Below, piece after piece: positions 979 to 16,428 of a stretch of DNA of 41,633 nt. This stretch comes from Dunaliella salina (Eukaryota > Chlorophyta > Chlorophyceae > Chlamydomonadales > Dunaliellaceae). The number at the start of each line of letters is the position of its first letter. Position 1 is the stretch's first letter. The notes under the pieces are model-generated. The model worked only from the letters and a program-made list of their open reading frames with translations. It was not told where the DNA came from and searched no databases. The stretch lies in contig MU069550.1 of assembly GCA_002284615.2 (NCBI GenBank), forward strand, positions 187,857 through 229,489, given 5' to 3'. The position numbers were made by a program, and so were the translations under genes.

Positions 979-1074
979 ATGCCCTCATTTAGACATAGAG
1001 CCCAGGCCCTGAGTGAATCAGAGAAATCACAAATTAAACCAGACTTCAGCTTTGGCATAGTAGCAGACATTCAG
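979..1074 (+). CDS. ADPRM: ADPRM exon 1
   Basis: Encodes residues 1-32 and ends with FSFGIVADIQ, the first metal-binding motif (D-x-Q). The donor is CAG|GTGAGA, phase 0. The frame is open back to an ATG at 889, so the true start could be earlier, or a 5' exon could exist upstream. Confidence 0.85.

Positions 1075-16428: not shown

Follow-up and report, generated by a model that had tools for sequence, protein, structure and literature searches.

The lancelet elements named 'mirages' are minisatellite-like duplications of intron-exon boundaries which occur on either side of an intron, seemingly without disturbing splicing. As reported for the globin genes BflGb6 and BflGb9 and for Adh3, and also for TnC and PGBD5, their units measure about 10–160 bp and often retain splice signals (PMC3087553, PMC3902484). 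For birds, a February 2026 report on chicken dot chromosomes describes 'sequence stuttering', or 'exon stuttering', in which exon edges with their splice sites are copied through the adjoining intron. It was recorded for 190 of 5,572 dot introns, with 1–44 copies, the copied part starts within one base of the exon border in over 90%, and the authors link the phenomenon to the GC-rich dot microchromosomes (PMC12954441). Tandem duplication of AG/GT (the slash here and below marks the splice junction) also underlies the Rogers model of intron gain, with cases reported from Drosophila and potato (PMC2891723, PMC4974935).

The window analysed here is a stretch of 41,633 nt (contig MU069550.1, positions 187,857–229,489) from the salt-loving green alga Dunaliella salina. 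Its G+C content is 0.474 and that of the introns of its ADPRM gene is 0.468, the value for the genome being 49.1% (PMC5658486). The ADPRM model comprises 12 exons and 1008 nt with an open frame and GT-AG borders at all 11 introns, and the predicted protein matches, at 100% identity from end to end, the D. salina database entry P0001, a sequence of 365 aa with its start 30 residues farther upstream. The product is a Mn-dependent ADP-ribose/CDP-alcohol diphosphatase related to the solved structure 2nxf. A relative, P0002, from a 2,032-nt contig, is 89% identical and joins the same peptides as P0001, which suggests that it represents a spliced transcript. The splice sites presumed to be used in ADPRM were deduced from the annotated protein and the reading frame. 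Intron 4 contains a CT run of 263 nt (99% matches, 5946–6208) about 110 nt before exon 5.

Five ADPRM introns carry arrays of copies of a flanking splice junction (Table 1). Counted with the exon edge plus 20 intronic nt, copies of the upstream 5' junction number 14 in intron 5, three in intron 6 and seven in intron 7, and copies of the downstream 3' junction number six in intron 3 and four, all short, in intron 11. The initial annotation had named these same introns and sides, with the flanking exon edge as template and with units differing between introns, and all of this is borne out. The junction scores were 23, 41, 32, 38 and 21 for introns 3, 5, 6, 7 and 11, respectively, against a null drawn from other genes' flanks (n = 3,792) with a 99% point of 15 and a maximum of 21. 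None of the remaining 17 of the 22 exon edges rises above that 99% point, the exon 6 acceptor equalling it at 15.

Table 1. Genes of the window, source exons and junction-copy arrays of ADPRM.
Feature	Positions	Strand	Remarks
ADPRM coding region, 12 exons	979–16428	+	P0001 start further upstream, at about 889
Exon 4	2977–3027	+	source of intron 3 array (3' junction)
Intron 3 array	2034–2884	+	six copies, acceptor and exon 4 start; compact part with a period of about 94
Exon 5	6322–6428	+	source of intron 5 array (5' junction)
Intron 5 array, first blocks	6429–7390	+	exon 5 end and donor; period 44
Intron 5 array, second block	8235–8487	+	about 850 nt of non-array sequence in between
Exon 6	8575–8642	+	source of intron 6 array (5' junction)
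Intron 6 array	8612–8870	+	starts within exon 6; period 84; GAG/gtgagc in all three copies
Exon 7	11188–11292	+	source of intron 7 array (5' junction)
Intron 7 array	11381–12029	+	seven copies, exon 7 end and donor; period about 100
Intron 11 copies	15927–16299	+	four short copies (19–33 nt), acceptor flank TTGCCTGCAG/GCCAC
Exon 12	16325–16428	+	source of intron 11 copies
Gene C, Pro-rich, 7 exons	22708–28398	-	hand-placed; no junction copy over null maximum, one edge at 16
Gene B, 7 exons	28563–32074	+	hand-placed; without junction copies (within-window control)

The arrays of introns 3, 5, 6 and 7 also stand on exon letters alone. When 40 nt of exon were compared with the adjacent intron, the donor edges of exons 5, 7 and 6 scored 27, 25 and 21 and the acceptor edge of exon 4 scored 16, values that none of 100 shuffles attained, while the acceptor edge of exon 12 scored 13, reached by five of 100. 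An exon-only BLAST search recovered exons 5, 6 and 7 and missed exons 4 and 12. The observation of junction-copy arrays is confirmed; intron 11, where the copies are made up mostly of the intronic acceptor flank (TTGCTTGCCTGCAG/GCCAC) and are thus weak on exon letters, is the weakest of the five. The same intron contains a near-perfect 22-bp array (15807–15897, 4.1 copies, 98%) which by eye resembles the exon 12 acceptor flank. In intron 6, two of the three matches span the junction and the third is mostly intronic; one acceptor-side match occurs at the threshold score of 16, and Tandem Repeats Finder places the array at 8612–8846, with its start inside the exon.

Across the readable genome, the arrays of introns 3, 5, 6 and 7 yielded no match outside the intron in which they lie, and a dispersed repeat was rejected as their source. 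In 20 arbitrary stretches 44,220 of 200,000 bases could be read and 155,780 were N, absence being unproven for the latter. Introners represent another form of repetition tied to introns, with the same unit dispersed across many unrelated genes, and in this the four Dunaliella arrays differ from them. Other repeats were also noted. A repeat of about 70 bp and unknown kind, with many genomic copies (at least 1,644 first-look candidates, 40 of them scored), lies at 6845–6913 and breaks the first blocks of intron 5, and stretches near 9548–9617 and 9748–9813 in intron 6 resemble it by eye. A telomere-like repeat of CCTAAA type occupies 7421–7477, between the two array blocks of intron 5. A motif 'ccttaatgcatgcggcctctggc...tagact', seen by eye at about 20211, 23240, 26680 and 35263 and in the downstream flank of a further locus (L038), is likely to be another dispersed repeat.

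Comparison of the copies with one another is informative about how the arrays grew. For intron 6 (two of three copies examined) the likeness between copies is 0.96 against 0.81 between copy and exon edge, and for intron 3 (five of six copies) the values are 0.90 and 0.79; in both introns the copies share derived letters. That these copies resemble one another more closely than they do the exon edge indicates that each array grew from an already diverged copy, so that the repeated execution of one and the same junction-copying step, as originally envisaged, is not needed. For introns 5 (seven of 14 copies) and 7 (six of seven) the two values are about equal, at 0.86/0.85 and 0.83/0.81.

The pattern is also present in other genes, as had been anticipated. 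Protein kinase exons, CCT chaperonin exons and genes B and C of the window were sampled, their junctions being placed by frame and splice signals, and each edge was tested over 150 nt of flank, the first 20 intronic nt being skipped, with four of 101 edges dropped for having fewer than 60 readable bases. Among 8,474 null comparisons with the flanks of other genes, five reached 16 and the maximum was 23. A nearby junction copy was found at 11 of 77 usable edges outside ADPRM (kinase 7/31, CCT 4/22, genes B and C 0/24) and at 13 of 97 including ADPRM, all scoring at least 20. Genes B and C, with 12 edges each, showed nothing over the null maximum and, taken together with the CCT gene on C656, gave 0 of 33 edges at 20 or more; occurrence is thus uneven.

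The kinase sample derives from a search with 66 exon matches, of which 20 were chosen before their letters were seen, strong matches without stops being preferred, and 16 were obtained with 170-nt flanks. One of these exons (L045) has junction copies on both sides, and for another (L049) a copy seen by eye fell below the junction threshold yet was present in the exon-only screen. Two neighbouring stretches, C94:234636–234782 and 234791–234934, match overlapping positions of Pkinase (145–193 and 152–198), perhaps as a local copy of part of an exon. The CCT edges, found by family search, had exceeded the null maximum in three of 23 cases with flanks of up to 1,480 nt. These CCT cases depend on windows which include the 20 intronic nt, and on exon letters alone they are at best marginal, with scores of 16 for L029 and L037, 14 for L038 and 8 for L032 (null 99.9% point 16); exon-only BLAST gave one weak CCT match, downstream of L029, at 28.3 bits and 26 nt from the border. 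Pfam searches of arbitrary stretches (L013 and L014 in forward frames, L003 on both strands) gave nothing over the cut-off. The models include two GC donors, gcgagt / gcaagt, at exon 4 of gene B (29774) and in L034, which suggests that these are GC-AG introns.

Adjacent and distant exon matches, a comparison which the initial annotation had proposed genome-wide, were contrasted for a sample of 54 exons by exon-only BLAST, modelled on the screen used in chicken. Adjacent introns (84,178 bp) contained 31 matches over the shuffled maximum, from 11 exons and all on the same strand with none opposite, against eight matches in other genes over 2,952,506 bp, or 35 times the space; ten further same-gene matches were exons lying in overlapping loci. 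By hand count, 21 of the 31 matches extend to 1 nt or less from the exon border, and 26 come to within 4 nt of it, the borders themselves being hand-placed.

We consider these arrays to be junction-spanning minisatellites which arose by local tandem duplication and are tolerated through exon-proximal splicing, a reading to which we assign a probability of about 0.72. A local tandem duplication would happen to take in an exon edge together with its splice site. The outer copy would still be exon, under selection and still spliced, and the inner copies, now intronic, would drift and would expand or contract by ordinary tandem-repeat turnover, leaving a longer intron. If splicing keeps the exon-proximal junction, such duplications would be tolerated on either side of an intron. 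The duplications themselves may have been caused by slippage, repair or unequal exchange. Arrays are also common elsewhere, their density per 10 kb being 1.6 for the remainder of the window and 2.3 for the arbitrary stretches (44,220 readable bases), which indicates that a general array-forming process exists. Evidence against a plain minisatellite view comes from the uneven occurrence and from an excess at edges of about 5-fold over terminal units of intron interiors, larger than the at most 2-fold attributable to constraint.

That excess bears on whether duplication is targeted to junctions, for example where R-loops, transcription-replication collisions or nicks raise its rate at splice junctions. 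Exon copies in introns can arise solely from duplications which cross a junction, and therefore their location at edges proves nothing by itself and a yardstick from intron interiors is required. Two were used: terminal units of arrays, found in 112 of 4002 windows (50 independent clusters), and windows holding any copy (363 of 4002). Against terminal copies the edges are enriched 4.9-fold (13/97; 2.2–10.0), and 5.2-fold without ADPRM (11/77; 95% interval 1.9–11.4), where the probability of a ratio of 2 or less is 0.03, and the kinase edges contribute 7 of 31 in 150-nt flanks. Against windows with any copy the ratio is 1.5–1.6 with intervals that include 1, and 1.6 (0.6–4.0) outside ADPRM. Binomial probabilities for 11 of 77 range correspondingly from 1e-5 at a background of 2.8% to 4e-4 at 4.3% and 0.089 at 9.1%. 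We regard the terminal-copy yardstick as the fairer one, since within an array a junction cannot occupy any position but that of the end unit. An exon copy decays more slowly, however, and constraint alone may thereby raise detection by up to about 2-fold.

An earlier version of the test, with flanks of up to 1,480 nt and preceding the kinase sample, gave 7 of 65 edges against 87 of 2553 terminal copies (p = 0.008), and with ADPRM left out 3 of 43 (p = 0.19), no significant excess. At scores of at least 22, edges (7/69) were no richer than one-sided windows of introns, those of the ADPRM arrays excluded (128/1311, hand sums). Since the control windows overlap and some CCT loci were counted twice, and with junction copies of CCT flanks left in the control, block-bootstrap figures are preferred, subject to those same limits. 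Moreover, the five array introns lack a G4 motif, one being present in intron 4, and their G+C content is an ordinary 0.46–0.50; a cause linked to GC richness or G4 structures was accordingly rejected. A junction-anchored process is thus favoured by the comparison with terminal interior copies and left without support by that with any-copy windows; a modest junction bias in duplication is likely rather than demonstrated, and junction-targeted duplication as the explanation of the arrays appears unlikely, if worth bearing in mind. The present data do not discriminate between slippage, replication stress and R-loops.

Another possibility is that the arrays are relics of intron birth, in which tandem duplication of an exon segment with AG/GT turned one copy into the intron, which more copies then came to fill. 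For intron 5 the donor and acceptor contexts are in register with a score of 12, the best diagonal value; the signal is weak, and the largest off-diagonal value is 11 if a single trivial self-overlap (23) is set aside. Introns 3, 7 and 11 show no in-register signal and the score of 10 for intron 6 is matched by unrelated pairs, so that such an origin seems quite improbable. The Rogers model likewise invokes duplication across a splice-site sequence, but there a new intron is created, whereas in D. salina existing introns grow.

Decoy splice signals persist within the arrays, again as first proposed. Scored with a simple matrix from 49 donors and 51 acceptors, and with a dinucleotide search of ±2 nt that makes the estimates generous, 12 of 28 donor copies and 10 of 15 acceptor copies lie at or above the 10th percentile of real sites. 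Six of the donor and three of the acceptor copies equal or surpass their own real site, and strength alone cannot therefore mark the real one; in intron 6 all three copies score above the real donor. Such persistence speaks for retention of the copies in a functional role, whether as reserve or alternative splice sites or as parts of exons. We judge this very improbable, because the 13 placed periods (41–158 nt) fall into classes of 3, 3 and 7 modulo 3, so that the frame is not kept, and in 12 of 13 cases one or more frames of the extension from exon to copy contain a stop. Least credible of all is an assembly artefact or a dispersed repeat inserted in the gene, for which one may cite the draft assembly with its gaps and the 70-bp repeat in intron 5, since copies differ from their source by 8–25% (identity 75–92% for the 14 edges scoring at least 18), four of the arrays are confined to their own introns in the readable genome, and the same pattern recurs on other contigs.

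As in lancelet mirages, the D. salina units span the exon-intron boundary and both sides are involved, as is apparent from introns 5–7 compared with intron 3 and from the kinase exon with copies on both sides. The lancelet cases comprise a handful of loci with normal splicing shown by cDNA and with length differences between haplotypes, whereas the algal case is based on the DNA of one assembly. As in avian stuttering, introns are rich in imperfect local tandem blocks, ADPRM carrying 11 arrays or 7.1 per 10 kb, and exon copies are concentrated in the adjacent intron; the start at the border appears looser than in chicken. Further features of the two phenomena are length polymorphism or somatic instability for mirages and, for stuttering, marked variation of intron length within a species. 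Unlike the avian case, the host is a green alga of ordinary base composition, and screening thresholds differ, such that the rates are not directly comparable.

The statement in the initial annotation that no description of such a pattern was known is contradicted by the lancelet (PMC3087553) and avian (PMC12954441) reports. The words 'mirage', 'lancelet' and 'alga' do not occur in the main text of the latter. For D. salina, the genome announcement (PMC5658486) contains no description of such arrays, and a word search of a second genome paper (PMC11140103) gave no occurrence of 'intron' or 'exon'. A literature search covering few subscription journals yielded no report for Dunaliella or another alga among the matches listed.

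The phenomenon is real, occurs in more than one gene and belongs to a known kind; what is new here is the lineage, the ordinary G+C content and the sampled frequency, and the evidence warrants no claim of a new mechanism. More speculatively, and in our view doubtful as yet, a genome-wide, junction-biased duplication affecting about one in seven junctions could be a main source of intron growth in D. salina, with lancelet mirages and bird stuttering as outbreaks of the same general eukaryotic process for which GC-rich DNA is not needed. The D. salina case ties together the separately named mirages and sequence stuttering, and stuttering-like arrays at ordinary base composition weaken the idea that a high G+C content is required. 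If the sampled rate holds, a single genome would offer many natural tests of how a true site is chosen among near-identical decoys, and the same genome would also test how introns grow.
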